From NCBI GenBank assembly GCA_902790495.1, contig CADASK010000012.1:1-43143 (forward strand): DNA of 43,143 bases. Reading direction: 5' to 3'. Source of the DNA: an uncultured Eubacteriales bacterium. Lineage in GTDB: Bacteria; Bacillota; Clostridia; Christensenellales; Aristaeellaceae. Numbering within the stretch: position 1 is the stretch's first letter; every line of letters begins with the position of its first letter. Below, one piece after another: positions 6,528 to 40,969 of the stretch. The notes below the pieces were generated by a model that worked only from the letters and a program-made list of their open reading frames with translations, did not search any database and had not been told where the DNA came from. The position numbers were made by a program, and so were the translations under genes.

Positions 6528-6586
6528 TTCCGCGCCTGCGGGCGCGGGCAAAGGGCTTTGCGATCGCCCTTTGCAAACCTTCGCCC
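6528..6586 (+). repeat. Dispersed palindromic element, copy A (short form)
   Basis: This is a two-hairpin element. The first hairpin pairs CCGCGCC (6530-6536) with GGCGCGG (6541-6547). The second pairs GCAAAGGGC (6548-6556) with GCCCTTTGC (6566-6574) around TTTGCGATC. It ends CTTCGCC and has no T-run. It lies between two plus-strand genes and is the only copy that reads in the same direction as its flanking genes. Confidence 0.9.
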
Positions 6587-6637
6587 GACCTGTCTAGTAA
6601 TGCAATTGAAACCCATTGCTTGAGGATGTGATTTTAT

Positions 6638-8572
6638 TTGAAGTGTCCCCAGTGCGGCCAGTGGAACCGCGCTTCCATGCCGGTGTGCCAGAAGTGCGGC
6701 GCTCGCCTGGAGATCGGGCGGGAGCAGGATTTCGCCTGGAAGGAGCGCCTGCACGATGACCGCCACGGCAGCGAATACTACCGGATGGACGACGACGGCT
6801 ACAGCGACGCGACCCAGGACGAGCGGGACACGCTGGCCGAGGAGATGGCCGAGCTGAAGACCCGCAAGGCCGAGGGCATCCAGCGCCAGCGCCGACTGCG
6901 CCGTTCCTCCGCCGACCGGGGCATCGCGCCCTCCGGCATGACCATCCGCACCAACCAGGCCGCCCAGGCCTACTGGGCCACCCAGGAGGCTCCGCGGGCT
7001 GCCGCAGCCGATGCATTACAGGATGCCCAGGAGGCCACCCCCAACCCCGACAGCGCGGCAGCTGCCGAGGAGCGCGGCCCCGTCCCGGGCGTGCGCATGG
7101 TGGGCGCCCGCGTGGAGACAACCCGCGCAGCCTCCGCCGGCGGCAGCAGAACCGCCGTGCGCTACACCTCCGCACCCATCACCGACGTCTCCCCCGCCCA
7201 GGCCTTTGCCCAGGAGCCGGAGATGTGGGACACCTCCCGCAATTGGGATCCCCTGTGGGCAGAGCAGGAGGCCTACGGCACCCGCTGGCAGCAGAAGAAC
7301 GCCCACGACATCGAGGTGCTGCCCGGACGCAAAAAGGCCATGCGCCGCTTCCTGCGCACGCTGGCCGTGCTGATCGTCCTGGCCCTGGTGGGGCTGACCG
7401 GCTTCTTCGGCTATCACTATTATCAGGACAGGAAGGCGGAGGAGCGGGAGCAGAACCGCGCCACCGTGGTCGCCTCCATGCTGGACGACCTGGCCGCCCA
7501 CACCGTGATGATCCCCGGCGAGGACGGGGCCCAGATCTACATCCGCGAGCTGCACACCTCCTACATCGTGGCCGACGGCTTTGCCACCGTGCAGGTGGCT
7601 GACCACACCTGGTACGACAACCTCGAGGATCTGACCGACCCCTCCATGGAGGTCACGCTGACACCCTTCCTCAAGACCGCCAGCGGCCGCCAGCAGCCCC
7701 TGGAGCCCATCACCTACACCATCGACATCCCGGTGAGCCCCATCCGGCTGATCACCCCCGACGGCAACCGCGTGGAGGTGGCCTCGGCGATGTACACCAT
7801 GAAGTTCGAGGTGCGCCCCGGCTCCAAGGTCTACATCAACGACCGGGAGATCAGCGACACCATCAACAACGAGACCGGTGAGATCTCCTACAACGCGACG
7901 ATCCAGCCCATCGGCGACAACGTGTTCACCCTCCGCTGCCGCAGCCAGTACTGCCGGGAGACACGGATGACCATCACCGTCTACCGCGAGCCCCAGGAGA
8001 TTCCGCTGGACCTGGCCGCCGATACCTACACCTCCACCAGCCTCAAGGCCATGCTGGTCAACTGCACCACCCTGCCCGGTGCTTCCGTGGAGGTGCGCTC
8101 CCCCTACTCCGACCTGAACATCACCAACCTCGACTCCACCGGCGCGTTCTCCTTCTACGCCCTGTTTGAGGAGATCGGCAACAACATCATCGAGATCAAC
8201 GCCTCCTACCCCGGCAAGAAGACCTCCCACATCGAGTACACGGTCTACTACCTGCCGCCTGAGATGGAATACAGCAAGAAGGCCTGGCCGCTGAGCGCGG
8301 ACGGCTACTCCGAGCTGGTGGGCAACATGACCGTGCGCGCCGCCCGCCACCAGGTCTATGTGGTGATGGGCACCCTGCAGTATTTCATCAGCGAGAAGCC
8401 CCAGCTGGCGGTCTTCAACTCCAGCGAGGACGGGCAGGGCCAGCCAGTGGTGGTGGAGAATTTCACCAAGATCACCTGGGAAAAGGGCAAGTGGTACCGC
8501 ATCTACGCCGACGCGGAGGGCATGTACAACGGCATGCCGCGTCTCAACGGCCGCTTCACCCACACGGACTGA
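6638..8572 (+). CDS. Zinc-ribbon, single-pass membrane protein with large extracellular region, function unknown
   Basis: A 644-residue protein. Residues 1-23 are a zinc ribbon (CPQC and CQKC pairs). A charged, Ala-rich cytoplasmic stretch follows. One transmembrane helix lies at about 240-260 (TLAVLIVLALVGLTGFFGY). The remaining about 380 residues should lie outside the cell and look beta-rich, with repeated Ig-like segments (TYTIDIPVSPIRLITPDG, RPGSKVYINDREI, LPGASVEVRSPY). This resembles zinc-ribbon membrane proteins such as YvbJ/TcaA in layout only. The TTG start at 6638 follows GAGGATGTG; the zinc ribbon beginning at residue 3 supports it. No enzymatic motif was seen. Confidence 0.8.
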   Translation: MKCPQCGQWNRASMPVCQKCGARLEIGREQDFAWKERLHDDRHGSEYYRMDDDGYSDATQDERDTLAEEMAELKTRKAEGIQRQRRLRRSSADRGIAPSGMTIRTNQAAQAYWATQEAPRAAAADALQDAQEATPNPDSAAAAEERGPVPGVRMVGARVETTRAASAGGSRTAVRYTSAPITDVSPAQAFAQEPEMWDTSRNWDPLWAEQEAYGTRWQQKNAHDIEVLPGRKKAMRRFLRTLAVLIVLALVGLTGFFGYHYYQDRKAEEREQNRATVVASMLDDLAAHTVMIPGEDGAQIYIRELHTSYIVADGFATVQVADHTWYDNLEDLTDPSMEVTLTPFLKTASGRQQPLEPITYTIDIPVSPIRLITPDGNRVEVASAMYTMKFEVRPGSKVYINDREISDTINNETGEISYNATIQPIGDNVFTLRCRSQYCRETRMTITVYREPQEIPLDLAADTYTSTSLKAMLVNCTTLPGASVEVRSPYSDLNITNLDSTGAFSFYALFEEIGNNIIEINASYPGKKTSHIEYTVYYLPPEMEYSKKAWPLSADGYSELVGNMTVRAARHQVYVVMGTLQYFISEKPQLAVFNSSEDGQGQPVVVENFTKITWEKGKWYRIYADAEGMYNGMPRLNGRFTHTD

Positions 8573-8626
8573 CACGCCGCGCCCGGCAGCTGGTCATAGA
8601 AAAGCTGCTTATCTGGAGGTACCCTT

Positions 8627-9484
8627 ATGTATGATCTTCTGATTATCGGCGGCGGCCCGGCTGCCCTCTCCTGCGCCATGACCGCCCGCAAGCGCGGCAT
8701 GGGCTGCGCCGTCATCGCGTCCGACGACGGCAGCGGCTGGCTCGCGAAGTCCGACCGGCTGGACAATTATCCCGGCATGCCCCACGTCTCCGGCAAGGAG
8801 CTGCTGCGCGTCTTCCGCGAGCAGGCGGAGGAGCTGGGCGCAAATTTCATCCACGGTATGGCGCGCCAGCTCCAGCAGATTCCCGGCGAGTGGATGGTGC
8901 TGGTGGGCAACGACGTGCTGGAGGCCAGGGCCGTGGTGCTCGCCATGGGCGCGGCCCGTCCGAAGCTGCTGCCCGGCGAGGACGAGATGCTCGGCACGGG
9001 CGTGAGCTGGTGCGGCACCTGCGACGGCATGTTCTACCGCGGCAAGGAGGTCGGCGTGATCTCCGCCTGGCATGACGGCGTGGAGGAGGCCCAGTTCCTG
9101 GCGGGTCTGGCCTCCCATGTGGATTACTACACGCTCGCGGCCCACGACCTGCCCCAGGACGAGCGCATTGAGCTGGTCTCCGGCCGGGTGCAGGAGCTGA
9201 AGCGCGAGGCGGACGGCAAGCGCATCGCCATCGTGACCGACCAGGGCAGCCGCGCCTACGACGGCGTGTTCGTATTCCGCCCCACCGTCGCGCCGGACAA
9301 GCTGATTCCGGGCATCGCCCTGGACGGGCCCTTCATCGCCGTCGACCGGCGGATGGCCACGAGCCTGCCGCTGCTCTATGCCTGCGGCGACTGCGCGGGC
9401 AAGCCCCTGCAGGTGGCCAAGGCGGTCGGCGAGGGCAACATCGCCGCCATCTCGGCTTCTGAGGATCTGGCCAAGCAGGCCTAA
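8627..9484 (+). CDS. Thioredoxin-reductase-like flavoprotein lacking NADPH motifs
   Basis: A 285-residue FAD-dependent oxidoreductase of the TrxB fold. It has the N-terminal dinucleotide motif IIGGGPAA, the redox-active CGTC in SWCGTCDG, and the C-terminal FAD motif ACGDCAGKPLQVAKAVGEG. In standard TrxB the CxxCDG is followed by GGGDSA and HRRDxxR, which bind NADPH. Here the same places read VGVISAWHDGVEEA and YTLAAHDLPQDER, so neither motif is present. Clostridial ferredoxin-dependent flavin thioredoxin reductases are known to lack these motifs, so a pyridine-nucleotide-independent reductase is the likely class. The ATG start is preceded by TGGAGGTACCC. No thioredoxin gene is adjacent. Confidence 0.85.
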   Translation: MYDLLIIGGGPAALSCAMTARKRGMGCAVIASDDGSGWLAKSDRLDNYPGMPHVSGKELLRVFREQAEELGANFIHGMARQLQQIPGEWMVLVGNDVLEARAVVLAMGAARPKLLPGEDEMLGTGVSWCGTCDGMFYRGKEVGVISAWHDGVEEAQFLAGLASHVDYYTLAAHDLPQDERIELVSGRVQELKREADGKRIAIVTDQGSRAYDGVFVFRPTVAPDKLIPGIALDGPFIAVDRRMATSLPLLYACGDCAGKPLQVAKAVGEGNIAAISASEDLAKQA

Positions 9485-9546
9485 TGCCTGCTGGGGTTCT
9501 GCGCCTGCCAACTTTGATGCTGACACCTGCTGCGGAGGAATGTGCC

Positions 9547-10296
9547 GTGAAGCGTTTTTTCCTGATTCTGATGGCCCTGATGCTGCCCGCCGTGGCCCTC
9601 GCGCAGCCGCTGACCCTCGCCGAGGATCTGACCGGCTCCATCCCCTGGTACCGGCATGAGGGCGACAGCGAGCCCGCCTACGTCTACACCTACGCCTACC
9701 CGCAGGTGCAGGGCGAGGGCGACGACGTGGAATCCATCAACGAGTATTACCGCTACACCGTGGAGGACACCGAGGCCTTCACCGTGCCCATCAACGGCGA
9801 GCAGCTGCCGGAGGACGCCCTGCCCTCCACCACCGAGGTCAGCTACACCGTCACCCTCAACGATGACCAGTACTTTTCGGTGTGGGTGACGCGCGCCTCG
9901 GTCATGAACGGCGAGCGCCAGTCCGCCTGCTCCGCGCAGATCTTCTCCCGCAGCGGCGAGAAGCCCGGCGGCGTGGTGACCCTCCCCTACATCCTCGGCA
10001 TCCTGCAGGCCACGGAGGACGACGCCTGGCTGCAGGACCGGCAGACCGCCAAGGCAGAGGCCTGCGTGCGCGCCATGGTCTGGGAGGCCCTCGAGGAGCG
10101 CATGGATGACGGCGAGGTCTTCCTGGACGACGTGGACGAGGAGGCCCTGGGTTTCCTGCTCTACCCGGAGGAGGATTTCTATCTGGACGAAGCGGGCAAC
10201 GCCGTGTTCTTCTTCCAGCCCGGCGACGTCAAGCCCGAGGCCGAAGGCCCCGTGCTGGTGCCCATCCCGCTGGAGGACATCATGGACGAGCTCTAA
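9547..10296 (+). CDS. Secreted DUF3298-domain protein
   Basis: A 249-residue exported protein. Cleavage is predicted after ALA at residue 19, and there is no lipobox. The C-terminal part (about 170-245) reads like the DUF3298 domain of RsiV and related proteins: EDFYLDEAGNAVFFFQPGDV, then EGPVLVPIPLEDI. The N-terminal part (tyrosine-rich YVYTYAYPQV, VESINEYYR) fits the PdaC-like domain that precedes DUF3298. I chose the GTG at 9547, with GGAGGA eight bases upstream. An ATG at 9484 would overlap the previous stop and put 21 non-signal residues before the signal peptide. RsiV binds lysozyme, but no sigma factor gene is nearby, so the role is unknown. Confidence 0.8.
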   Translation: MKRFFLILMALMLPAVALAQPLTLAEDLTGSIPWYRHEGDSEPAYVYTYAYPQVQGEGDDVESINEYYRYTVEDTEAFTVPINGEQLPEDALPSTTEVSYTVTLNDDQYFSVWVTRASVMNGERQSACSAQIFSRSGEKPGGVVTLPYILGILQATEDDAWLQDRQTAKAEACVRAMVWEALEERMDDGEVFLDDVDEEALGFLLYPEEDFYLDEAGNAVFFFQPGDVKPEAEGPVLVPIPLEDIMDEL

Positions 10297-10350
10297 GGCG
10301 CCGCCCTTTGGGAAAACACTGATAGTACAGTCCCATCTGCCCGCACTTCC

Positions 10351-10379
10351 TTGACCTCGGGACCCTCACGGACTATAAT
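10351..10379 (+). promoter_or_regulatory. Consensus sigma-A promoter of ilvE
   Basis: TTGACC (10351-10356), a 17-bp spacer and TATAAT (10374-10379). The predicted start near 10386 gives a leader of about 78 bases. Confidence 0.9.
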
Positions 10380-10398
10380 ACATGCATCAGCCATGAAG

Positions 10399-10430
10399 CC
10401 GGACGCCGCCGCCCGGGCGGACCGTCCCGG
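10399..10430 (+). other. GC-rich hairpin in the ilvE leader
   Basis: CCGGACG (10399-10405) pairs with CGTCCCGG (10423-10430) with one bulged base, and CCGCC pairs with GGCGG inside. There is no T-run and no T-box signature, so it is not a recognisable amino-acid riboswitch or attenuator. Confidence 0.4.
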
Positions 10431-10463
10431 CCAACCTTAGCGATGAACATGGAGGAATGACCT

Positions 10464-11534
10464 ATGCTGGACATCAATGTGACGCTGACCACCGCGCCGA
10501 AGGCCAAGCCCGCCGACGAAACCAAGCTCGGCTTTGGCAAAATCTTTACCGATCATATGTTTCTCATGAATTATGAGAAGGGCAAGGGCTGGTTCGATCC
10601 TCGCATTGTCCCCTACGGGCCGTTCACCATGGATCCCGCCTGCACCGTGCTGCACTATGGCCAGGCGATCTTCGAGGGCACCAAGTGCTATCGCCGCGCC
10701 GACGGCGGCCTGCAGCTGTTCCGCCCGGAGGAAAACTTCGCCCGCATGAGCCGCAGCGCCGAGCGCATGGGCATGCCGGCCCTGGACGAGGAGACCGCCC
10801 TCGCCGGCCTGAAGAAGCTCATGGAGATCGAGGCCGACTGGGTGCCCCATCAGGACGGCACCAGCCTCTACATCCGCCCCACCATGATCTCCACTGACGT
10901 GATGCTGGGCGTACACGCCTCCCGCACCTACCTGTTCTTCATCATCTGCAGCCCCGTGGGCTCCTACTATAAAGAGGGCCTGAAGCCCGTGGGCATCTAC
11001 GTGGAGGACGAGTACGTCCGCGCCGTGCGCGGCGGCACCGGCTTCACCAAGTGCGCCGGCAACTACGCCGCCTCCATCCTGGCCGGCGAGATCGCCGAGG
11101 AGAAGGGCTATTCCCAGGTGCTCTGGCTGGACGGCGTGGAGCAGAAGTACGTGGAGGAAGTGGGCTCGATGAACATGATGTTCGCCTACGGGCGCCACAT
11201 CGTGACCCCCGCGCTCAACGGTTCCATCCTGCCCGGCATCACCCGCAAGAGCATCCTCACCCTCGCCCAGCAGCTGGGCTATGAGGTGGAGGAGAAGCGC
11301 CTGGCCATCGCCGACATCTGGGCGGACATCAAGGCCGGGAAGATCACCGAGGCCTTCGGCACCGGCACGGCGGCCGTCATCTCCCCCGTGGGCGAATTGT
11401 GCATGAAGGGCGAGAAGCTCTCCATTGGCGGCGGCAAGATCGGCCCGGTGGCCCAGAACCTCTACGATACCCTGACCGGCATCCAGTATGGCCGTGTGCC
11501 GGACGAGAACGGCTGGATCGTGAAGCTGAGCTGA
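10464..11534 (+). CDS. ilvE: Branched-chain amino acid aminotransferase
   Basis: A 356-residue class IV PLP aminotransferase that interconverts leucine, isoleucine and valine with their 2-oxo acids using glutamate/2-oxoglutarate. The family blocks are clear: LHYGQAIFEGTKCYR, GTSLYIRPTMI, and FTKCAGNYAAS with the PLP lysine at residue 196, then VEEVGSMNMMF and GTAAVISPVGEL. The length matches the BCAT II group. The ATG follows GGAGGAATGACCT. It has its own consensus promoter and no other branched-chain biosynthesis gene nearby. Confidence 0.96.
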   Translation: MLDINVTLTTAPKAKPADETKLGFGKIFTDHMFLMNYEKGKGWFDPRIVPYGPFTMDPACTVLHYGQAIFEGTKCYRRADGGLQLFRPEENFARMSRSAERMGMPALDEETALAGLKKLMEIEADWVPHQDGTSLYIRPTMISTDVMLGVHASRTYLFFIICSPVGSYYKEGLKPVGIYVEDEYVRAVRGGTGFTKCAGNYAASILAGEIAEEKGYSQVLWLDGVEQKYVEEVGSMNMMFAYGRHIVTPALNGSILPGITRKSILTLAQQLGYEVEEKRLAIADIWADIKAGKITEAFGTGTAAVISPVGELCMKGEKLSIGGGKIGPVAQNLYDTLTGIQYGRVPDENGWIVKLS

Positions 11535-11585
11535 GCGATTCTCTCCGCGCCAAGCGGAAAATAAGATTCATCCCCAGGAGGGTTT

Positions 11586-12638
11586 ATGCAGAGAGAACTG
11601 AGTGAGCAGAGCATGGCCTGGCCCGATAAGACCATGAGCCTGATCCGCCAGAGGCAGCTGGAGGCCTGCGAGGAGCGCCTCGCGACCCTGCCGGCCTTCG
11701 GCGTGTTTCAGGGCTGCACAGACGCGAACGCCGAGGAGCTGTGGCGGGTGACCTACGAAGCCCAGGAGCAGCTCGCCGCGCCGCGGCTGCACACCCAGAG
11801 GGAGCTGGAGGAGCAGGTGATGGCGCGGCTGCCCGTGGAGCTGCTCCTTCTGCCCATCCATGAATACGAGCTGCTGGGCCGCGCCATGCTGAATCCGGAG
11901 CGCACCCCGCTGATGGACTGGCACGAGTGCGCCCCGGCGGAAAGCCTGGTGCGGCGGCTGCTTTGCGTGTGCCAGATCGAGGAGGACGACACCATCTCCC
12001 TGCGCGTGGCGCCCGAGGTCTCGGCAGCCATCTACCGCATCGCCTCCGACCCCGTGCACATCCGCCTGCGCGAGCAGGTCAGCGCCTTCTACCTGACGGT
12101 GATGGCCGCGCTGAACGTCTACGGCGCCATGTGGGCGGACGAGGCCGAGGCCTACCTGCGCGAATCCGTGCTCACCGGCACCGCCGCCAACGACCGCCTG
12201 GCCGTGCAGCGGATGCTCAAAACCGCCTTCGACTACGTCTATGACGCCGACGGCCGCATGGTGCTGCTGCACCCGGGCGTGGCGGATCCCCAGGCGATGC
12301 TGCCCTTCCTGTGCAAGGTGAAGCTGGCGGATTTCGCCGTGGAGGACGACGAGGAGGAGATCCCCCAGATGCTCATCTCCGACACCGAGCGCACCGCGAC
12401 GGTGATGGTGGCGGGCGTGCTGGAGGATGCGCTCCGCCCCGACCTGAACGTCTGGATGGCCGCGGAGGATCTGCGCGTGATGGCCAAGCAGGGCGTCAGC
12501 CTGGAGACCATGCGGGAGGTGCTGGCCAGCCAGCTGGAGCAGCGCCCCACCGCCGTGATGCTCGCCGCCCTGCAGCTGATGCGCGCCGAGATCCCCGCCT
12601 GGATCTGCCTCCCGCAGGCAAGAAAGCTGGTGCAGTGA
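11586..12638 (+). CDS. Protein of unknown function
   Basis: I do not recognise this 350-residue protein. It has no signal peptide or membrane segment and looks mostly helical and acidic (for example EDDEEEIPQML), so it is probably cytoplasmic. Near the start it has a Gln/Glu-rich helix, and the second half is leucine- and alanine-rich. The ATG at 11586 follows CCAGGAGGGTTT. Its stop codon is directly followed by the TTG start of the rluA-type gene, so the two are probably translated from one message that starts at the ilvE promoter. Confidence 0.75.
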   Translation: MQRELSEQSMAWPDKTMSLIRQRQLEACEERLATLPAFGVFQGCTDANAEELWRVTYEAQEQLAAPRLHTQRELEEQVMARLPVELLLLPIHEYELLGRAMLNPERTPLMDWHECAPAESLVRRLLCVCQIEEDDTISLRVAPEVSAAIYRIASDPVHIRLREQVSAFYLTVMAALNVYGAMWADEAEAYLRESVLTGTAANDRLAVQRMLKTAFDYVYDADGRMVLLHPGVADPQAMLPFLCKVKLADFAVEDDEEEIPQMLISDTERTATVMVAGVLEDALRPDLNVWMAAEDLRVMAKQGVSLETMREVLASQLEQRPTAVMLAALQLMRAEIPAWICLPQARKLVQ

Positions 12639-13508
12639 TTGGCCTGCTATGACCGCGTGATTGAACCCGGCGCTGCGGGGCAGCGCGTCGACGCCTATGT
12701 CCATCGGTTTTTGCCGGAGCTCACACCCGATGAGCTCCGGGCTGTTTTTTCACACCGGGATGTGAAGCTGGACGGCAAGCGTGTCCGGCCCGACACCCGG
12801 CTGCACGGCGGCGAGCTGCTGCAGGTCTACTGCATGCAGCCCCCGCGGGAGGCCATCGCCGTGGTGTACGAGGACGATGACGTGCTGCTGATCAACAAGC
12901 AGGCGGGCATGATCGTGGAGCCGGACGAGACGGGCAGCCTCTCCCTGACGGAGCTGGCCACGCGCCACGTCCGCCGCGAGCGCCCCGATGCGCCGCCGCC
13001 CATCCCCTGCCACCGGCTCGACAGCCAGACCTGCGGGCTCATCCTCTACGCGAAAACCGCAGCAGCCGCCGAGGTGCTGGAGCAGGTCTTCCGCGAGCGG
13101 ACGCTGGCGAAATACTACGTCTGCCTCGTCAAGGGCCGCATGAAGCCGCCCAGCGCCACCTGCCAGGCCTACCTCAGCAAGGACGCGGAGGCCGGCCGGG
13201 TGCGCATCAGCGACCGACCCCTGCCCGGCGCGAAAACCATCGTCACCGCCTACGAGACGCTGGAGGCCGGCGACGTCAGCCGCCTGCGCGTCCACCTGGT
13301 GACGGGCCGCACCCACCAGATCCGCGCCCACCTGGCCTCCCTCGGCCATCCGCTGATCGGCGACGACGTGTACGGCGACCGCAGCCTGAACCGCGCCCTG
13401 AAGGCCCAGGGCCGGCTGATGCTCTGCGCCTGCGAGCTGACCCTCGACACCGCCGGCAAGCTCCCCGCCCTCGACGGCCGAACCTTCACCATCCCTTGCC
13501 CGTTCTGA
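12639..13508 (+). CDS. RluA-family pseudouridine synthase
   Basis: A 289-residue enzyme that isomerises uridine to pseudouridine in rRNA or tRNA. An S4-like RNA-binding domain occupies about 1-70 (VDAYVHRFLPELTPDELRAV, VKLDGKRVRPDT). The catalytic signature HRLDSQTCG places the active aspartate at residue 128, followed by TKYYV-like KYYVCLVKG and GRTHQIRAHLASLGHPLIGDDVYG. The substrate position (RluC, RluD or TruC type) cannot be assigned. The TTG at 12639 abuts the preceding stop; GTG at 12657 is an alternative. No clear ribosome site is visible, suggesting translational coupling. A terminator-like hairpin lies inside the reading frame at 12714-12750. Confidence 0.9.
   Translation: MACYDRVIEPGAAGQRVDAYVHRFLPELTPDELRAVFSHRDVKLDGKRVRPDTRLHGGELLQVYCMQPPREAIAVVYEDDDVLLINKQAGMIVEPDETGSLSLTELATRHVRRERPDAPPPIPCHRLDSQTCGLILYAKTAAAAEVLEQVFRERTLAKYYVCLVKGRMKPPSATCQAYLSKDAEAGRVRISDRPLPGAKTIVTAYETLEAGDVSRLRVHLVTGRTHQIRAHLASLGHPLIGDDVYGDRSLNRALKAQGRLMLCACELTLDTAGKLPALDGRTFTIPCPF
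12714..12750 (+). other. Terminator-like hairpin inside the rluA-type coding sequence
   Basis: CCGGAGCTC (12714-12722) is perfectly complemented at 12732-12740 around a nine-base loop, followed after GCTG by six T residues (12745-12750). This meets the usual form of an intrinsic terminator but lies about 75 bases into the gene. It may act when translation is poor, or be coincidental codon usage. Confidence 0.5.
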
Positions 13509-13543: not shown

Positions 13544-13601
13544 GGCGAAGGGGTGGAGGGGGCGATCGCAAAGCCCCCTCCCCGCGCCCGCAGGCGCGGA
13601 A
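13544..13601 (-). repeat. Dispersed palindromic element, copy B (short form)
   Basis: Read on the minus strand it starts TTCCGCGCC, has the invariant first hairpin, then GGAGGGGGC paired with GCCCCCTCC around TTTGCGATC, and ends CTTCGCC. Compared with copy A, several positions in one arm are changed and the other arm has the matching changes. It lies between the rluA-type gene and the HAD gene, opposite in direction to both. Confidence 0.9.
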
Positions 13602-27215: not shown

Positions 27216-27429
27216 GGTCGATCCATCGGGTCTGTGGTTGCAAGCCGATGCCAGTCGCAGGCAAAGCGGTCCACGTAATCCGTCCAAAGCGGCGGGGAGC
27301 ATGGTGCGGTTTAGAAGTAAGTCCGCCCGGGTCTTCGGATTCGAGAGAAGTGCGTGAGGGCGCAGATGCGTTGAGCAAGCTTCCAGGCGGCGAGTGTGGG
27401 GGCAAAGACCAGGTCAGCCGAGGATCACC
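27216..27429 (+). ncRNA. Candidate structured leader RNA before the zinc-ribbon gene
   Basis: No gene occupies this stretch. The predicted transcript starts GGTCGATCCATCGG (27216-27229), and its complement, with small bulges, ends the region (CCGAGGATCACC, 27418-27429), so the two ends can form one closing stem. Inside, GCGG (27307-27310) pairs with CCGC (27323-27326), TGCG (27351-27354) with CGCA (27361-27364), and CTTC with GAAG around 27333-27350. The repeated AAAGCGG and GGCAAAG segments may take part in further pairing. It does not match tmRNA, RNase P, SRP or T-box signatures. Location and size (about 215 nt) suggest a member of the 6S or raiA-motif type, but this is only a guess. No terminator follows, so it may be a leader or processed from the mRNA. 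Confidence 0.5.
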
Positions 27430-27957: not shown

Positions 27958-28081
27958 GGCGAAGGTTTGCAAAGGGCTCGGAGCGCCCGGAAAACGCCAT
28001 GTTATGGCGTTTTCAGCGGAGAGCGGGCAAGCAGCCCCGGACCGATCGCAAAGCCCTTTGCCCGCGCCCGCAGGCGCGGAA
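27958..28081 (-). repeat. Dispersed palindromic element, copy C (long form)
   Basis: On the minus strand it begins TTCCGCGCC like the other copies and ends CTTCGCC. Between the arms GCAAAGGGC and GCCCTTTGC it holds an additional module of about 60 bases with a perfect 10-bp hairpin (27991-28000 with 28004-28013). It lies between the zinc-ribbon gene and the GH127-like gene. Confidence 0.9.
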
Positions 28082-28210: not shown

Positions 28211-29827
28211 GTGCCGCTGAAGCCTGTGTTGGAAAGAGCCCCTCTCTATCCGTGCGCGTGGACCCCTCTGCGCCCCGGTCAGATTCATACAGAATGGAAG
28301 CCCGCCCTGGCCCTGTACAGCGCCGTGCGCGACTGCCGCAGCGCCGCCGTGGCCGAGGGCGCGGTGCGTCTCGCCTTCGCGGTGAAGGAGAAGCCGTCCG
28401 AGGAGCCCGCCGTACGCCTTGTGCGCGAGGTCATGGCCGGCCAGAGCGAGGACGGTTCCCTGCCCTGCCCCATGGCGGAGCAGCTCGCCTGGGTGCGCGC
28501 GGCCTACGCCATCGCCGAGGCCGAGGCCGACCGCGGCCTGCTGACCGCCGTGCTGCGCTGGCTTGGCTGGTGCGCGTCCCAAGAGCTGCCCGAGGATAGC
28601 AGCCTGCGCCCCGAGACCGCCGACCTGATGGAGCTGATCGAGAGCGTGTACCTGCTCACGGGCAAGAGCGCGCTGCTCTCCCTGATGAGCCGCCTTCGCG
28701 CGGACTGCGCCGCCTGGATGACCGCCCTGCACACCTTCACGCAGCAGCGGCCCACCTCCAAGCTGGAGCTCACCGGCGACGATCAGCCCCTGCACAACCC
28801 CGTGCGCCTGGCGGACGGCTTCCGGGCCGCGATGCTGGGCGGCATCTACATGGGCAGCGGCAAGCACCTCTCCGCCGGCACCGTCTGCTGGCAGAAGCTG
28901 GCCCGCTACCATCTCAGCTCTGCCGGCGGCACCACCGCCGCCCCGGATCTGGAGGGCGCCTCCCCCGCGAAGCCCCAATCCGCCGCGTCCATCGGCGCCT
29001 GGGCAGAGGCCTTTGCGATGCAGAGCCTGCACCGGGAGAACACCTGGGTCTGGTGGGAGCTGGACAGGCTGATGGCCAACGCCCTTCCCGCCGCCATCGA
29101 CAACGATCCGATCCACGCCGCTCACCGCGTCAACCGCGTTGACTGCACGGAAAGCGCAGCATCCGCCACCGAGCGGGAGGCCGACCTCGCCCGCCTCGCC
29201 CGCGGTGTGGCCGCGCTGCTGGCCTCCGCCGTGGTGATGGAGTCGGACGGCGTGCGCGTCCAGCACCTCCTACCGGGCTCTTATGCCATCGCGGGCAGCC
29301 AGGGCTCCTGTGTCTTGCGCCTGAGCGATAAGACCGACGAGAGCTGCCAGATCGCCCTGCGCGGCGTGCTGGAAGGGGCCCTGCGCATCCGCATTCCGGC
29401 GCGCCTGGAGGCCTTCACGGCCGCGTTGGAGGGCGGCGGCGCGTACCTGGGCGATACCCGCCATCACCTGACCCTGCGCAAGGAGTGGCGCAGCGGCGAC
29501 AGCATCCGCGTCACCTGGGACCGCGCCCTCACCACCGAGGAGGCCTATCACCAGGGCCAGTGCGTCTACTGGGGCGCTGAGCTGATGGCCATGCCCGCCG
29601 ACGACGAGAGCTACGCCGTCGCCGTGACCGGCGCGCCCCACGTGGCGGAGGGCCGTGTCTGGCTGCCCGTGGCCTCCACCGCTGACTGGCCGATGAAGGA
29701 GGGTCAGCCCGCCGACACGCCTGTGCTGCCCGCGGTGTCCGGCGAGGCCGCGGACGTCTGCCTGTGCCCCTTCGCCAGCCTGACAGGCCGCATCGCCGTG
29801 TTCCCGACCGCCGGCACCCGCGCATGA
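28211..29827 (+). CDS. GH127-like (beta-L-arabinofuranosidase superfamily) protein
   Basis: A 538-residue protein without a signal peptide, so cytoplasmic. The helical first part ([28 protein letters not shown]) fits an (alpha/alpha)6 barrel. The C-terminal part has the beta-sandwich pattern of GH127/DUF1680 proteins ([37 protein letters not shown], then [12 protein letters not shown]). GH127 enzymes cleave beta-L-arabinofuranosides using a zinc-bound cysteine nucleophile; I could not place the conserved cysteine and glutamate with certainty. It is shorter and divergent, so activity is uncertain. The GTG at 28211 follows TGGAGGAGATTTT. Its stop overlaps the ATG of the dihydrouridine synthase gene. 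Confidence 0.7.
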
Positions 29828-34925: not shown

Positions 34926-34928
34926 GTG

Positions 34929-34968
34929 AATCAAAAAACTGGCTCCGATTGGAGTCAGTTTTTTGATT
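34929..34968. terminator. Bidirectional terminator between the exported-protein operon and the ankyrin gene
   Basis: AATCAAAAAACTGGCTCC (34929-34946) pairs with 34951-34968 around GATT, with one G-T pair. Runs of six A and six T on either side make it usable on both strands. Confidence 0.93.
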
Positions 34969-34977
34969 ACACTCATC

Positions 34978-36003
34978 CTATTCTGATTCAGAAATTTCAT
35001 CCGTCGTATAGAAATAGCCGAAGGATTCTTTGTTCTCCATCTCACCAAAGTTTGTAGTAAAACAGAGAACCTTCCCACTTGACAGATGCAGTTCTGTCAC
35101 AGGCTGTTGGTAATGTGTTTTCCCTTTGATGATCGTGTTATTGGAAAATGTGATATCCTTGATCGTACAGCCTGCCATCCCCTGGAAAGAAGAAGATACA
35201 TCGGCCCATGGCATCTCCGGAGGATTGACGTCATAATAGATATTATGCGCCTGCCGACATACCAGATATCCGTCATCAAGCGCCAGATACAAATTGCAGG
35301 AAAAACAATGATCATGCTTCGATTCAGGTGTGTCAATGGCATGAAAAACCAATTCAGCATTCTCTTCATCCGCCAAAACTGCACGTATTCTCTTCCCGAT
35401 GGCCTTTTGATAGCTGTCTATTCCTGCATAAGGTTTTCCTTTGTCCTTCGCATCAAGGATTTGATAGATGGCTTCGTACAGGTTGCCCAAATGATGGTCT
35501 TTTTCGCATACATCTGCGAAGCCTCCTTCCGTATCAGCGCAATCCTTTGCAGTCGTCTGATCATCCGTATACGCAACCGCATTCACAGCACCTGCATCAA
35601 GCAGCACCTTGGTTGCCTCAATCATTTTAGGGCCAAATCGTCCCATGAAGATACTCGATAGGCACATAGCACCATATTGGTTATCATTCTTATGCACATC
35701 GTATCCATGCGAAAGGAAAAAACGAATGATAGCAATCAACTTGGTACCACGTTCATTATCCCATTCTATCCGTTGCGGATCATTCCATGTGCTGTCTGTT
35801 CTATCGCTCCAAGCATATGATACATTCAGATAATTGAATATGCTCTCCGAGAGTACGTTTTCATCTTCGCCATCATTGTCGTTGATATCGGCTCCCAACC
35901 TGATCAGTTCTTCGGCTTTTTCAAAATCCGGTTCTTTCTGATTGAACAATTCAGTCAGTTGATAGCTTAAGCCCTTAAAGCCATGTTTTAATCCGCTTTC
36001 CAT
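34978..36003 (-). CDS. Ankyrin-repeat-containing protein, AT-rich
   Basis: A 341-residue cytoplasmic protein. The N-terminal half has ankyrin-like helices: FEKAEELIRLGADINDNDGE, IIRFFLSHGYDVHKND and ATKVLLDAGAVNAVAYTDDQ. The C-terminal half (about 200-341) has no recognised domain and contains a CFSC pair. The gene is clearly more AT-rich than its neighbours and lies between a terminator and thiI, suggesting acquisition. Ankyrin proteins of this size sometimes act as immunity proteins to secreted toxins, but no toxin gene is adjacent. The ATG follows GAAGGGTTTTCAGC. A TTGACA at 36060-36065 could be a promoter element, but no good -10 is seen. Confidence 0.8.
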   Translation of the reverse strand: MESGLKHGFKGLSYQLTELFNQKEPDFEKAEELIRLGADINDNDGEDENVLSESIFNYLNVSYAWSDRTDSTWNDPQRIEWDNERGTKLIAIIRFFLSHGYDVHKNDNQYGAMCLSSIFMGRFGPKMIEATKVLLDAGAVNAVAYTDDQTTAKDCADTEGGFADVCEKDHHLGNLYEAIYQILDAKDKGKPYAGIDSYQKAIGKRIRAVLADEENAELVFHAIDTPESKHDHCFSCNLYLALDDGYLVCRQAHNIYYDVNPPEMPWADVSSSFQGMAGCTIKDITFSNNTIIKGKTHYQQPVTELHLSSGKVLCFTTNFGEMENKESFGYFYTTDEISESE

Positions 36004-36080
36004 GCTGAAAACCCTTCATACTGTTCCAAAGAACCCAGATTCTTACCCTATGGAGAACATGTCAAAGGATTGAATGGTAC

Positions 36081-37226
36081 TTAGACCTCCACAATCTCAA
36101 TCCCCTGCATGGCCTCGTCGATCAGGGCGTCCATGTCCAGGGAGCTCTCGCCCTCCACCGCGCGGTCGAGGCGCGGATGGGTCGCGGGGTGGCGCGGGGT
36201 GAACACTGTGCAGCAGTCCTCGTAGGGCAGCTCGGAGGTCTCCAGGGTGCCGATTTTCCGCGCGGTGTCCATGATCTCCGCCTTGTCGAAGCCGATCACC
36301 GGGCGGAACACGGGCATGTTCACCACGCTGTCCGTCACGCCGAGGGCCTCCATGGTCTGGCTGGCCACCTGGCCGATGCTCTCGCCGGTGATCAGCGCCT
36401 GGGCCTTCTCCAGCCTCGCGCACTTTTCCGCGATGCGCATCATGTACCGGCGCATGATCAGCGTGCCGTAGTCGTCGGGGCACTTGGTGTGGATCTCCAT
36501 CTGGATGTGGGTGAAGGGCACAATGTAGACCCGGATGCCGCAGCAGCTCTCCGACAGGATGCGCGCCAGCTCCAGCACCTTCTCCTTCGCGCGGTCGGAG
36601 GTGTAGGGATAGGAGTGGAAGTGCACCGCGCAGATCTTCACGCCGCGCTTGGCGATCATCCAGCCCGCCACGGGGCTGTCGATGCCGCCGGAGAGCAGCA
36701 GCGCCGCCTTGCCGTTGGTGCCCACGGGCATGCCGCCCACCGCCGGCACCACGCGCACATAGAGATAGCACTTGTCGCGGATCTCCACGTTCAGCACGTG
36801 ATCCGGGTGATGGATGTCCACATGCAGGGCCGGGCAGGCGTCGAGGATGCGGCCGCCCAGCTCCTCGTTGATGGCCGGGGAGTCCATCGGGTAGCGCTTG
36901 TCAGAGCGGCGGGCGCTGACCTTGATGCTGCCCTGCAGGCCGTCCATCATGCGCACCGCCTGGGCCGCGATGGCCTCGAAGTCCTCCTTCTCCATCTCGA
37001 TGGCCGGGCACACGCTGTGCACGCCGAAGACCTTCGTCACCCGGGCGATGCAGGCCTCCATGTCCTCAAAGTCCGCGACAAAGATGCGGCCGTCGTGCAG
37101 CCACACCTCCGCGCCGAGAGATTTGACGCTCTCGCGGATGTTTTTCACCAGCGCGCGCATGAAGAAGGGGCGGTTGAGGCCCTTCAGAAAGATTTCGCCG
37201 TAGCGAACAAGCAGTAGTTCCCGCAT
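36081..37226 (-). CDS. thiI: tRNA 4-thiouridine sulfurtransferase
   Basis: A 381-residue enzyme that adds sulfur to U8 of tRNA and in some organisms supplies the thiazole of thiamine. A ferredoxin-like and THUMP region (about 1-165) precedes the PP-loop motif LLSGGIDSPVAGWMIAKRG near residue 175, then VHFHSYPYTSDRAKEKV and TGESIGQVASQT. The C-terminal rhodanese domain of the E. coli protein is absent, as in most Bacillota. The ATG follows AAAAAAGGATCGATTGTATC. The cysteine desulfurase that would donate sulfur is encoded just upstream, separated by a repeat element. Confidence 0.96.
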   Translation of the reverse strand: MRELLLVRYGEIFLKGLNRPFFMRALVKNIRESVKSLGAEVWLHDGRIFVADFEDMEACIARVTKVFGVHSVCPAIEMEKEDFEAIAAQAVRMMDGLQGSIKVSARRSDKRYPMDSPAINEELGGRILDACPALHVDIHHPDHVLNVEIRDKCYLYVRVVPAVGGMPVGTNGKAALLLSGGIDSPVAGWMIAKRGVKICAVHFHSYPYTSDRAKEKVLELARILSESCCGIRVYIVPFTHIQMEIHTKCPDDYGTLIMRRYMMRIAEKCARLEKAQALITGESIGQVASQTMEALGVTDSVVNMPVFRPVIGFDKAEIMDTARKIGTLETSELPYEDCCTVFTPRHPATHPRLDRAVEGESSLDMDALIDEAMQGIEIVEV

Positions 37227-37265
37227 GATACAATCGATCCTTTTTTATCTAATGCCAGCAGGGGG

Positions 37266-37372
37266 TTCCGCGCCTGCGGGCGCGGGCAAAGGGCTTTGCG
37301 ATCGGTCCGGGGCTGCCGCCCGCTCTCCGCTGAAAACGCCATAACATGGCGTTTTCCGGGCAAACCTTCGCC
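37266..37372 (+). repeat. Dispersed palindromic element, copy D (long form)
   Basis: Nearly identical to copy C in the opposite orientation, with the same perfect 10-bp hairpin (37333-37342 with 37346-37355). It lacks about 15 bases near the end, including the 3' arm that pairs with GCAAAGGGC in other copies. It separates thiI from the cysteine desulfurase gene, and reads against their transcription. Confidence 0.9.
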
Positions 37373-37414
37373 GCATCCTTTTTCGTTGAGCATTCTTATA
37401 GCAACAATGATTGT

Positions 37415-38566
37415 TTACTTCCGCACATACGCCGAGAGCGCCTCATACTGGCGGCGGACGGCGTCCACCGTGGTGTCGATCATCTCGGCGGTGACGGCGG
37501 GACAGAGGCTGAAGCGCAGGGCGCAGTCGGCGCGCTGGGTCGAGCAGCCCATGGCCGTCAGCGCCGCGGAGACCTTCTGCCTGTGGCTGGAGCAGGCAGA
37601 GCCCGCACTGACGTAGACGCCCTCGCCCTCCAGGGCGAAGAGCATGGTCTGGGAGCGCACCGGCTGCACGCTCACATTGAGGATGTGAGGCGCGCTCTCG
37701 GGGGTGCCCGGCTCAGGGCCGTTCAGCTCCGCCGTGGGGATCGCCGCGCGAAGCCCGTCCCAGAGCCGCCGCTTCATCTCCACCATGTGGGCGACGCCGT
37801 CCGCCGGGAAGGCCTCCACGGCCGCGGCCATCGCCAGGATGCCCGGCACGTTCTCGGTGCCGCTGCGCCAGCCCTCCTCCTGGCCGCCGCCGAACTGGAT
37901 CGGGGCCAGCCGTGCCTCGCGCCGCACCACCAATCCGGCGATGCCCTTGGGCGCGTGGATCTTGTGGCCACTGAAGGCATAGCTCTGGATGCCGCTGTCG
38001 CTGAAGCGGATCGGCACCCGCAGGAAGCCCTGCACGCCGTCCGCGTGGATCGCGGCCTCCGGGCAGAGGCGGTTGCGCAGGGCCACGATCTCCTGCAGCG
38101 GCATCACCGCGCCGGTCTCGTTGTTCACCTGCATCACGCAGATCATCCGCACGTCCTCGCCCAGCTGCGCCTCCAGCTTCTCCAGGTCGACGACGCCCCG
38201 GCGATCCACCGCCATGTTCTCCACGCGATGGCCCAGGCGGCCGATCTCCTGCGCGCAGGCGGCCACCGCGGGATGCTCCACTTGGCTGATCAGCACCCGC
38301 CCGGGCTTGCGCACGGTTTTCAGGTAGCCCAGGATGGCCAGATTGTCCGCCTCGGTGCCGCTGCCGGTGAAGACCAGGCGGTGCCCCTGGGCGTGGACAG
38401 CCCGCAGGCAGGTTGCCCGGGCCTGGTTCATCAGCTTTTCCGCCTCCATGGCCGGCTTGTAAAGCGAGGAGGGATTATGCCAGTGCGCCCGCAGCGCGTC
38501 CTCGGCGGCCTGAATCGCCGCCTCGCAGGGCTGTGTGGTCGCGCTGTTGTCCAGATAAACTGCCAT
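37415..38566 (-). CDS. Cysteine desulfurase (NifS/IscS family)
   Basis: A 383-residue PLP enzyme that takes sulfur from cysteine for tRNA thiolation or Fe-S clusters. The start VYLDNSATTQP, the lysine in SGHKIHAPKGIAGLVV that binds PLP, the RSGTENVPGILAM block and the active-site loop SAGSACSSHRQ with its cysteine are clear. Located next to thiI, it is most likely the thiI-dedicated sulfur donor. The ATG at 38566 follows AGGGGTGAGCGC. The frame is open 24 codons further upstream, but that part overlaps the preceding gene. Confidence 0.94.
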   Translation of the reverse strand: MAVYLDNSATTQPCEAAIQAAEDALRAHWHNPSSLYKPAMEAEKLMNQARATCLRAVHAQGHRLVFTGSGTEADNLAILGYLKTVRKPGRVLISQVEHPAVAACAQEIGRLGHRVENMAVDRRGVVDLEKLEAQLGEDVRMICVMQVNNETGAVMPLQEIVALRNRLCPEAAIHADGVQGFLRVPIRFSDSGIQSYAFSGHKIHAPKGIAGLVVRREARLAPIQFGGGQEEGWRSGTENVPGILAMAAAVEAFPADGVAHMVEMKRRLWDGLRAAIPTAELNGPEPGTPESAPHILNVSVQPVRSQTMLFALEGEGVYVSAGSACSSHRQKVSAALTAMGCSTQRADCALRFSLCPAVTAEMIDTTVDAVRRQYEALSAYVRK

Positions 38567-38570
38567 GCGC

Positions 38571-39125
38571 TCACCCCTGCTCCACGCCGTGCGGGAGATA
38601 CTGGCGAACCAGCCGGACCATATCCTCCGAGGGTTCAAACACGATCAGGGACTTCTTGCCGTCCTTCTGGAAGAAGAAGTAGTACAGCTCCGCATCGCGG
38701 TTGAGGTACCAGCGCAGCTGCTGCACGTCCCGCATGGAGACATAGCGCTGGAAGCTGGAGGAGGCCACCTTGCCGAAGGCCTCCACGCCCTTGACCTTCA
38801 GGCTGCCCAGGCTCTTGCGCTTGCTGTTGTTGAAGACCTGCGCAAAGTCCAGCTCGCCGTTGGTGAAGGTGTACTCGTACTCGGTGCGGAGCCTGTCGCG
38901 GAAGAGGAACAGCAGCACCGCCGCGCCCGCCGACACCAGGCCGATGGCCAGCGTGGGCAGCAGGCTGACCAGCGAATGGCCCGACATGGCGAAGTTGATC
39001 ACCGCGCTGATGTTCATCATCGCGAAGATCGCCAGGATCACCATCATCGGCAGGGTGAGGAAATACGCGGCTTCCTCCGCCGTGCGCTTATGCTTGACGA
39101 CAACCTCTTCCCAGAAATGATCCAT
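38571..39125 (-). CDS. Membrane protein of unknown function (DUF6106-like)
   Basis: A 184-residue protein with two transmembrane segments at about 22-44 and 52-74 (FLTLPMMVILAIFAMMNISA, LLPTLAIGLVSAGAAVLLFL). The C-terminal half is a cytoplasmic-type soluble region beginning RTEYEYTFTNGELDFAQVFN. The YEYTFTNGELD motif suggests the DUF6106 family; this comes from memory and is tentative. The start follows AAAGGAGGACTCGTT. It ends four bases before the desulfurase start, so the genes are cotranscribed. Confidence 0.78.
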   Translation of the reverse strand: MDHFWEEVVVKHKRTAEEAAYFLTLPMMVILAIFAMMNISAVINFAMSGHSLVSLLPTLAIGLVSAGAAVLLFLFRDRLRTEYEYTFTNGELDFAQVFNNSKRKSLGSLKVKGVEAFGKVASSSFQRYVSMRDVQQLRWYLNRDAELYYFFFQKDGKKSLIVFEPSEDMVRLVRQYLPHGVEQG

Positions 39126-39183
39126 AACGAGTCCTCCTTTGGGGCTTGTTTGCCCATTTGAAACAATTCTTTATCTGCAAGTG

Positions 39184-39241
39184 TTCCGCGCCTGCGGGCG
39201 CGGGCAGGGGGCTTTGCGATCGCCCCCTGCACCCCTTCGCC
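39184..39241 (+). repeat. Dispersed palindromic element, copy E (short form)
   Basis: It has the invariant first hairpin, then GCAGGGGGC paired with GCCCCCTGC around TTTGCGATC, ending CTTCGCC. It lies between two minus-strand genes and reads against them. Confidence 0.9.
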
Positions 39242-39265
39242 TTCTTCTCGGTAAGGAATAAATGC

Positions 39266-39718
39266 TTATACATTCAGCCAGATCAGCGCGACCAGGGCTC
39301 CGGTCAGCGCGCCAAAGAAAACCTCCATCGGGGTATGGCCCACCAGCTCCTTGAGCACCTCGTCGGTGATCGGCGCGCCCTCCACCAGCACGTTGCTGAT
39401 GATCTCGTTCAGCGCGCGCCCCTGCCGGCCTGTCTCGCGCCGCACCCCCGCCGCGTCATACATCACCACGGAGGAGAACACGAAGCAGATCGCAAAGGCC
39501 ACGCTGCCCAGACCCTCGCTCGCGCCGACCATGATCGTCAGCGCCATCATGCCCGCCGAATGGCTGGAGGGCATGCCGCCGGAGCCGACCAGCTTATGCC
39601 AGTCCCACTTCTTTTCCACATAAGCATAGGTCGGCACCTTCATGAACTGCGCCAGCAGCCAGGCGCTGACCGCCGCCCACAGGCAGCGGTTGCCCATCAG
39701 ACTTTGCCACGGATTCAC
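39266..39718 (-). CDS. Divergent PAP2 family membrane protein (DUF212, YuiD-like)
   Basis: A 150-residue membrane protein. The motifs AQFMKVPTYAYVEKKWDW, GSGGMPSSHSAGM, SVVMYDAAGVRRETGRQ and ELVGHTPMEVFFGALTGALVA are those of DUF212, a divergent acid phosphatase/vanadium-haloperoxidase-like family with the GMPSSHSA and GHTP elements. In plants and bacteria its function is unclear. The GTG at 39718 follows GGGAGGTGGAAGG. The gene stands 31 bases downstream of ispA. Confidence 0.92.
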   Translation of the reverse strand: MNPWQSLMGNRCLWAAVSAWLLAQFMKVPTYAYVEKKWDWHKLVGSGGMPSSHSAGMMALTIMVGASEGLGSVAFAICFVFSSVVMYDAAGVRRETGRQGRALNEIISNVLVEGAPITDEVLKELVGHTPMEVFFGALTGALVALIWLNV

Positions 39719-39748
39719 CCTTCCACCTCCCGCAGACCAGTGCTACCC

Positions 39749-40624
39749 TCAGTGCGTTCTGTTTACCGCGCCGCGGGCGCACTCGGCGAAGAAGTCCGCC
39801 GCACTGCCCAGCGGAGCGATCGCCTCCAGAGCCAGCTCCGCCTCGCGCTGCGCATCCAGCCGCGCCTGTTCCAGCCCGCGCAGGCTGACCCAGGTCGACT
39901 TCGCCTCCTCCGCGTCCTTGCCGACGCTCTTGCCCAGTTCCTGGGCTGTGCTGGTCACGTCCAGCACGTCGTCCGCGATCTGGAACGCGAGGCCCAGGTG
40001 CTGACCGTAGCTCACGCCGCGGGTCAGCAGTTCCTCGTCCGCGCCACCCAGGATCAGCCCGGCCTCGATCGCCGCCGTCAGCAGATCGGCGGTTTTGCGC
40101 AGGTGCATGGCGCGCACAGCGGCCTCATCGGCCTGACGGCCCTCCAGCTCCATGTCGAGCACCTGACCCGCCACCATGCCGCCCGCGCCGCAGCGTCTGG
40201 CGATGGCATAGGCTGCGCGGGTGCCGCGGCCATCCGAAAAGCCCACCGCGGTGCGCAGCATCAGCTCCATGGCGGCGCTCAGCAGGCCGTCGCCAGCCAG
40301 GATCGCCATCGCCTCGCCGAAGCGCACATGGCTGGTGGGGCGTCCGCGCCGCAGCACGTCGTCGTCCATCGCGGGCAGATCGTCGTGGATCAGGCTGTAG
40401 GTGTGGATCATCTCCAGCGCGCAGGCGAAGGGCAGCGCGTCCTCCGCCCTGCCGCCAGCCGCCTCGCACGCGGCGAGCAGCAGCACGGGCCGCAGCCGCT
40501 TGCCGCCCGAGAGCAGCGAATACTCCATCGCCTCCCGCAGGCTCGGCGGCAGGGGCTCGAGGGCGTCCAGCGCGTGCGGCAGGGCTTGCTCCACCTGCTC
40601 AAGATAGGCTTGGTAGCTCCTCAC
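39749..40624 (-). CDS. ispA: Polyprenyl (farnesyl/geranyl) diphosphate synthase
   Basis: A 291-residue chain-elongating enzyme that condenses isopentenyl diphosphate with allylic diphosphates, feeding undecaprenyl-phosphate and quinone synthesis. The first aspartate-rich motif is IHDDLPAMDDD, followed by RRGRPTSH. The second is FQIADDVLDV. GGKRLRPVLLLA is the substrate-binding block. The short-chain length and the FARM region fit farnesyl diphosphate synthase. The GTG at 40624 follows GGAGGTGTGAGCC and lies three bases after the xseB stop, so the genes are coupled. Confidence 0.95.
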   Translation of the reverse strand: MRSYQAYLEQVEQALPHALDALEPLPPSLREAMEYSLLSGGKRLRPVLLLAACEAAGGRAEDALPFACALEMIHTYSLIHDDLPAMDDDVLRRGRPTSHVRFGEAMAILAGDGLLSAAMELMLRTAVGFSDGRGTRAAYAIARRCGAGGMVAGQVLDMELEGRQADEAAVRAMHLRKTADLLTAAIEAGLILGGADEELLTRGVSYGQHLGLAFQIADDVLDVTSTAQELGKSVGKDAEEAKSTWVSLRGLEQARLDAQREAELALEAIAPLGSAADFFAECARGAVNRTH

Positions 40625-40627
40625 GGC

Positions 40628-40882
40628 TCACACCTCCGCGTCCACCAGGTCGGTCAGCTGCAGCGGTTCCTCGGTCTCGGTGCCGTCAGCGGCCTGGCGC
40701 AGCGCAGTGAGGCGCTGGGTGGCCGAGGCAAGCTCCTTCTCCATGGCGGTGAGCATCGCCATGCCCTGCTCGTAGTCCTTCAGGGTTTCCTCCAGCGGGA
40801 GGCCGCCCTGCTCCATGCGGCCGATGAGGGTCTCGACCTGGGCGAGCTGCTCCTCAAAGCTCAGCTTTTTCTTGGTTGGCAT
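40628..40882 (-). CDS. xseB: Exodeoxyribonuclease VII small subunit
   Basis: An 84-residue protein with the XseB core LSFEEQLAQVETLIGRMEQGGLPLEETLKDYEQGMAML. Several copies bind the large subunit to form the single-strand nuclease. The ATG follows AAAGGAAATAGACC. The large subunit gene xseA lies 101 bases upstream, separated by repeat copy F. Confidence 0.95.
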   Translation of the reverse strand: MPTKKKLSFEEQLAQVETLIGRMEQGGLPLEETLKDYEQGMAMLTAMEKELASATQRLTALRQAADGTETEEPLQLTDLVDAEV

Positions 40883-40912
40883 GGTCTATTTCCTTTCAGT
40901 ATCAGCAGGGGA

Positions 40913-40969
40913 TTCCGCGCCTGCGGGCGCGGACAGGGGGCTTTGCGGTCGCCCCCTGTACCCCTTCGC
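40913..40969 (+). repeat. Dispersed palindromic element, copy F (short form)
   Basis: It has the invariant first hairpin, then ACAGGGGGC paired with GCCCCCTGT around TTTGCGGTC. The outer base pair is A-T where other copies have G-C, so both arms changed together. It separates xseA from xseB and reads against them. Upstream bases (CAGCAGGGG) match those of copy D. Confidence 0.9.

Follow-up and report, generated by a model that had tools for sequence, protein, structure and literature searches.

A repeat element with a loop-tail pseudoknot and a linker that mirrors its stem in Clostridia chromosomes and viral-collection contigs

The window analyzed here is the 43,143-nt contig CADASK010000012.1 (positions 1 to 43,143, assembly GCA_902790495.1) of an uncultured Eubacteriales bacterium of the family Aristaeellaceae, and it carries six copies of an intergenic palindromic element between positions 6,528 and 40,969. 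A preliminary description had reported these copies together with a common first hairpin and a second hairpin that varies while keeping its pairing, and had likened them to repetitive extragenic palindromic (REP) sequences and bacterial interspersed mosaic elements (BIME) or to structured mRNA spacers. All six are present at the coordinates given then, and all are recovered at E <1e-6 by a covariance model trained on 47 aligned copies (four of the six window copies included), the next match in the window having E 0.03. The copies are arranged as follows:

6528..6586, plus strand: short copy; hairpin 1 at 6530-6547, hairpin 2 arms at 6548-6556 and 6566-6574, loop pseudoknot bases at 6560-6563, third strand at 6575-6579, tail at 6580-6584
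13544..13601, minus strand: short copy; arms GGAGGGGGC/GCCCCCTCC, third strand ACCCC
27958..28081, minus strand: long copy; hairpin 2 intact, extra domain between loop and 3' arm
37266..37372, plus strand: long copy; 3' arm of hairpin 2 lost
39184..39241, plus strand: short copy; arms GCAGGGGGC/GCCCCCTGC, third strand ACCCC
40913..40969, plus strand: short copy; arms ACAGGGGGC/GCCCCCTGT, outer pair altered on both sides, loop GCGG

Read on its own strand, a short copy consists of TT, hairpin 1 (CCGCGCC TGCG GGCGCGG), arm GCAAAGGGC, loop TTTGCGATC, arm GCCCTTTGC, linker AAACC and tail TTCGC. Hairpin 1 is indeed identical in sequence in 6/6 window copies, and a search for it with ≤3 mismatches returns 12 matches, namely the six sites on both strands, where 0.52 are expected. 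The four arm pairs listed earlier for hairpin 2 are likewise correct, but the copy at 37266-37372 keeps the 5' arm GCAAAGGGC and lacks GCCCTTTGC, and hairpin 2 pairing is therefore not kept there. In the other long copy 66 additional bases separate the loop from the 3' arm; long copies (this one and those in L051, L056 and L065) carry a conserved insert that includes an apical hairpin; judged by eye, the arms of that hairpin also differ compensatorily between copies and species. No T-run directly follows any window copy, as described before, and reading through the copies revealed no U-tract of the intrinsic-terminator kind directly after the hairpin; in the source genome TTT is weakly preferred 8-10 nt beyond the tail (57-67%). 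The further claim that five of six copies read against the flanking genes also stands, as five are antisense to both neighbors and 6528..6586 shares the strand of its own, according to an in-house gene caller retrained on gyrB/gyrA frames whose strand Pfam supports. Pfam additionally backs the neighbor strand at 6528 (LytR), 13544 (pseudouridine synthase, HAD hydrolase) and 37266 (ThiI, class-V aminotransferase), whereas the proteins at 28211-29827 and 38571-39125 gave no Pfam match, and for 27958, 39184 and 40913 the gene caller is the source of the neighbor strands. Rfam covariance models yield no match to the element above gathering score, a score reached in the window by the raiA motif RNA alone (RF03072, 168.8 bits; 27220-27426, plus strand, with the long copy at 27958 lying ~530 bases further on); sub-threshold matches overlapping copies elsewhere, to the CPEB3 ribozyme (L065, E 2.8) and PhotoRC-I (L338, E 2.4), were judged to be chance.

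Across genomes the element reduces to a core of ~31-40 nt, made up of a 7-10 bp hairpin with the loop TTT-SCGR-TC and a tail TCGS with which the loop pairs, and in the source genus a further hairpin usually stands directly in front of it. Loop TTTGCGATC accompanies tail TTCGC and loop TTTCCGATC accompanies TTCGG, both combinations being found within the source genome (67 and 14 copies) as well as in genomes G019 and G004. A tail is recognizable in 188/190 copies, and loop and tail agree in 183 of these 188, with one disagreement (in G019) and four tails carrying a letter other than G or C; the stretches were taken by place in the source genome and, in relatives, by a pattern that leaves both covarying letters free. 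Copies from viral-collection contigs agree in 100/100 distinct cases. The loop base R opposite T is A in 158 copies, G in 29, T in 2 and C in 1, which fits A-U/G-U pairing, some of the stretches having been chosen by a pattern that requires R. Pairing in the helices, scored over the 47 aligned distinct copies, holds for 98.9% of the 940 cells, a figure that falls to 43-49% when the partner is slid by one column, and 117 cells are altered on both sides versus 41 in shuffles, with two-sided change at nine pairs. It is important to note that entry into this alignment required the loop, the tail start and mostly paired arms, so that the percentage paired is partly selected and the two-sided changes are not. 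An outer stem closing the whole element was also considered and set aside, flank pairing being not clearly better than with swapped flanks, with the exception of the source genome's minus strand (-13.7 vs. -12.8 swapped, sd 0.3); the plus strand of G002 gives -17.5 vs. -16.1 swapped (sd 0.7).

The linker between hairpin and tail is coupled to the hairpin. When it is read outward from the tail, and the 5' arm (the purine strand) outward from the loop with an offset of two bases, the two correspond by a simple code: C stands over G, and either A or T over A. Summed over five positions, mutual information reaches 2.07 at this register and does not exceed 0.70 at any of six others (57 variants). 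Among 32 distinct variants, a set that leaves out copies of other spacing, the code is obeyed in 133/154 cells and, without the outermost position, in 114/122, against 105/122 in the best of 2000 shuffles and 66, 97 and 78 at other registers. The code is obeyed by 232/236 cells in 59 viral-collection variants (maximum of 1000 shuffles 198) and by 365/392 in 98 chromosomal ones (shuffle maximum 315); in loci fetched by pattern, the tail-adjacent linker base and its arm partner, one of four positions, are fixed by that pattern, in the shuffles as well. Over A, viral linkers carry A 25 times and T 12 times, and over G they carry C in 195/197; for chromosomal linkers the counts over A are A 37, T 9, G 1 and C 1, with C in 319/330 over G. 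Linker length mostly follows the stem: in the stretches used for the mutual-information analysis, stems of 7, 8, 9 and 10 bp mostly come with linkers of 3, 4, 5 and 6 nt, respectively. Elsewhere other spacings occur, such as a 6-nt linker on a 9-bp stem, frequent in the viral collection, or a 5-nt linker on an 8-bp stem, seen in some chromosomal copies.

The linker is thus a mirror of the arm and not its complement, antiparallel pairing explaining at most 93/154 cells versus 133 for the mirror rule, and it is therefore not what ordinary pairing or templated repair would yield. Quasi-palindrome correction can make hairpin arms match, and stems paired by hairpin-templated repair, which copies one arm onto the other, would need no selection; such copying would not produce a mirrored linker, however, and we regard this explanation as hardly credible. 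At the single syntenic site that also holds a copy in the sister-species genome G010, arms and linker differ together and an unusual hairpin-1 loop is common to both, a joint difference that could instead reflect replacement by another copy. Together, loop-tail pairing and a linker that tracks the hairpin lead to an H-type pseudoknot with a third strand as its brace, and because all three strands change in step, the folded shape appears to be what evolution keeps. This predicted fold is well supported by the covariation of its pseudoknot pairing and three-way coupling. Selection on structure, as proposed in the preliminary description, is accordingly borne out more strongly than claimed, with arm changes that keep pairing and with a loop-tail pseudoknot and third-strand code that had been overlooked.

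The family extends far beyond the window, both genome-wide and in relatives, and the outcomes that the preliminary description had named as refuting its reading did not occur. The core pattern has 328 matches in the 2.47 Mb genome (reversed-pattern control 0), and we estimate ~330 short-form copies in the source genome; the choice of pattern matters, one narrow-gap version having caught just 10 of these, and those used for the named-genome and first viral-collection scans missing 9-bp stems with 5-nt linkers. In the genus, hairpin 1 occurs exactly or with one mismatch in 8/12 genomes and the covariance model finds matches in 11/12, from 1 to at least 150 each; overall it finds matches in 15/16 genomes tested, four of them at ≥150. 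Pattern matches were found in 22/100 genomes of a family sample (range 0-428 per genome), in 27/297 of an order sample, where those outside the family number one or two each, with letters that by eye do not form the stem (G297, with three, being the exception), and in 1/196 of a class sample, namely the source genome alone. Plasmids gave no pattern match. At least 118 named stretches matched, mostly gut and rumen Clostridia metagenome genomes, and the few proteobacterial ones among the named matches listed have stems of just 3-6 pairs. Cores also occur head to tail, three of them at ~70-base spacing in the chromosomal contig L215 and others at L311 934-1003 and L186 716-780; L266 10442-10496 (minus strand) is a chimera that combines one type's 5' arm with a 3' arm and linker from a different type, and copies at L046 5595, L047 11808 and L387, one of them in a viral-collection contig, directly adjoin another repeat ending GACTGAGAGG or GGCAGAGAGG.

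Copy number differs widely among relatives, and sites turn over against one sister species. In the fetched part of G010, 7/8 syntenic sites lack the element, including that of 13544..13601, and one of the seven holds a different repeat; at L283 (G010 C1), syntenic to L040 10298, this is a tandem hairpin repeat (GGGAAAGCGTCCCCTGGAACC...). In G001, G019 and G035 inverted pairs, which mostly join unlike types, have a spacing of mostly 79-88 nt; close pairs in the source genome are spaced by 34-117 nt. Hundreds of short, intergenic, palindromic copies in inverted pairs are what REP, BIME and REPIN families also present, and to this extent the earlier comparison was apt. A classical REP/BIME family moved by the REP-associated tyrosine transposase (RAYT) is nevertheless very improbable. 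Its Y1_Tnp domain was found neither in the source genome (94.5% complete) nor in other high-copy genomes, the nine without it being G000, G001, G002, G004, G010, G019, G035, G043 and G044 (assemblies 66-95% complete), whereas the 6/20 genomes that have it (G008, G012, G017, G074, G081, G344) carry 0-36 core matches where counted, with 26 covariance-model matches in G008. The GTAG/CGTC tag that PMC3733652 gives for the foot of REP palindromes is not seen, the flank consensus before hairpin 1 being RRGRTT (66 copies), and the pseudoknot and third strand set the element further apart; membership of the REP/RAYT system is thus not supported. Reverse transcriptase (RVT_1) was not found in G000, G001, G002, G010 and G035, and RVT_1 matches are present in G019 and G044; neither RAYT nor reverse transcriptase accounts for the spread of the element, and both were rejected as movers.

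Two scans of the viral collection contributed 16 and 76 stretches. Among 100 distinct copies, 61 lie on the strand of both neighbors and 20 on the opposite one (p 5.7e-6), the others being inside predicted genes (9), at edges (9) or between divergent genes (1); related contigs repeat some loci, so that independence is partial. When 95 short copies of a second pass were split by the presence of hairpin 1, those without it lay on the same strand in 43 cases and on the opposite strand in 13, and 23 of the 43 begin ≤6 nt from the end of the stop codon, eight of them at exactly 0. Copies with hairpin 1 divide 16 to 5, and in 9/16 sense ones the core begins 21-33 nt after the stop, approximately the length of hairpin 1. 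PHROGs matches were obtained for 9/10 proteins chosen upstream of near-stop copies and comprise three major head proteins, a large terminase, a weak small-terminase match, an HNH endonuclease twice (with the same scores), a head-tail adaptor and a primase-type protein. Nine human-stool phage sequence records also match the pattern. Two-core tandem cassettes lie between gene pairs at L308 2042-2120 and 3969-4048, L313 10009-10087 and L317 1570-1648, with a CCAGGGC-type core followed ~10 nt on by a CCAAAGGGC-type core, and recur in related viral-collection contigs.

Phage carriage, similar size and an H-type fold are reminiscent of ToxI, the RNA antitoxin of type III systems, for which PMC3475682 reports triplex contacts in a 36-base repeat and phage-borne pseudo-ToxI repeats. 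That the copies are scattered ToxI-type pseudoknots serving as phage decoys of a host RNase is most unlikely, as they are dispersed and single, and the ToxN family (PF13958) is found in just 2/18 genomes (G002 and G005), the source genome not among them. The STAXI motif (RF01728) is likewise a repeated pseudoknot, located near genes for DNA-handling proteins, and its authors weighed RNA against single-stranded DNA; it is tandem and found in Enterobacteriales, whereas the element described here has no Rfam match. We found no earlier description of this element in the open-access literature.

In light of these results we propose, with a probability of roughly 0.5, that this is an RNA element placed behind phage genes that has also spread in chromosomes as a mobile repeat. 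Because phage copies often start at or just after the stop on the sense strand, the element is proposed to form in the sense mRNA behind a finished phage gene, where the pseudoknot might block exonuclease decay or seal one cistron from the next, while chromosomal copies would have spread as a non-autonomous mobile repeat via another enzyme, largely regardless of strand. The element would thus act as RNA, sense RNA being favored by placement in phage contigs and by the A/G-against-T loop pair. More tentatively, at somewhat below even odds, the element may constitute a new class of mRNA element, a pseudoknot whose third strand would follow a fixed code in reading the hairpin (C on G-C, A or U on A-U). 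Phages would put it directly behind the stops of genes such as those for capsid and terminase, and as a mobile repeat it would also have colonized host chromosomes, reaching hundreds of copies with neither RAYT nor reverse transcriptase.

A number of observations weigh against this proposal, foremost gene context in chromosomes. Of 100 parsed copies in 700 kb, three without tail were dropped, and the 97 left lie between tandem (78), convergent (14) or divergent (3) genes, inside a predicted gene (1) or at an edge (1), the available gaps being 399 tandem, 52 convergent and 50 divergent. Relative to tandem genes, 27 copies in the source genome are on the same and 50 on the opposite strand (p 0.012), the corresponding counts are 4:5, 8:8, 4:4, 1:2, 4:4 and 1:1 in G001, G002, G010, G004, G019 and G044, and 19 versus 30 in pattern-fetched metagenome contigs. 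Chromosomal copies thus show no sense preference, and the earlier suggestion of a structured mRNA spacer draws its support from the viral-collection copies, mostly sense and often near a stop, and none from chromosomal orientation. Even in the viral collection 20/81 tandem copies are antisense and 9/100 lie inside predicted genes, and part of these contigs may be bacterial fragments. Hairpin mismatches carry no clear RNA signature, the G-T:A-C ratio being 11:5 in one set and, not significantly, 17:12 in chromosomal and 3:2 in viral copies. As to mobility, no mover was found among the enzymes tested, and the longest direct repeats flanking the copies do not clearly exceed those obtained after the flanks were swapped, with any duplication of just a few bases lying below detection.

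The same body of evidence bears on which molecule folds, for which we rate RNA at gene ends as an even bet and folded DNA as distinctly less probable. The alternative working form would be single-stranded DNA, the G-rich strand folding as an intrastrand purine-motif triplex with pseudoknot during replication or transposition and serving as a single-strand transposase substrate or a replication roadblock. On that strand the linker code equals the purine motif (G.G-C, A.A-T, T.A-T), with a pyrimidine motif on the other strand explaining 101/122 cells versus 114; according to PMC4666352, an antiparallel code of G.GC and A or T.AT belongs to DNA, and purine-motif triplexes are reported not to form in RNA. 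This triad code, like the absence of a chromosomal strand preference, favors DNA of the other strand and counts against an mRNA element. The same source describes the PIT/BoxC/TM_ECO elements of Enterobacteria and others, likewise present in many copies, with a purine-strand third-strand relation that permits an intrastrand triplex, copy numbers sharply different between relatives and inverted pairs of unlike types, as also reported for the E. coli triplex motif. Our linkers obey the purine-motif code against the purine arm as those do, but their 3-6 triads fall short of the 6-15 nt triplex stem of the ITxF search and of the 9-nt triplex stems of TM_ECO, and the word pseudoknot does not appear in that paper (PMC4666352), whereas loop-tail pairing and usually a second hairpin characterize the element here, found in Clostridia and phage contigs. 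A DNA form is disfavored by the strand bias of viral-collection copies and their frequent position at stop codons, and by the loop base R against T, as expected if the other strand is the one that pairs; a code read in the minor groove of RNA (C on G-C, A or U on A-U) is also conceivable. On balance we consider single-stranded DNA a serious rival as the working form, though the less probable one.

Three-way covariation this clean, with a third strand whose length mostly follows the stem, is unusual, and the natural variants already amount to a compensatory-mutation experiment for a nucleic-acid triple helix. They make it testable whether bacterial triplex-forming repeats act as DNA or RNA. In this element a chromosomal repeat is tied to an exact placement in phages, at stop codons, and it would represent a high-copy, REP-like family with a mover that is probably other than the enzymes tested.

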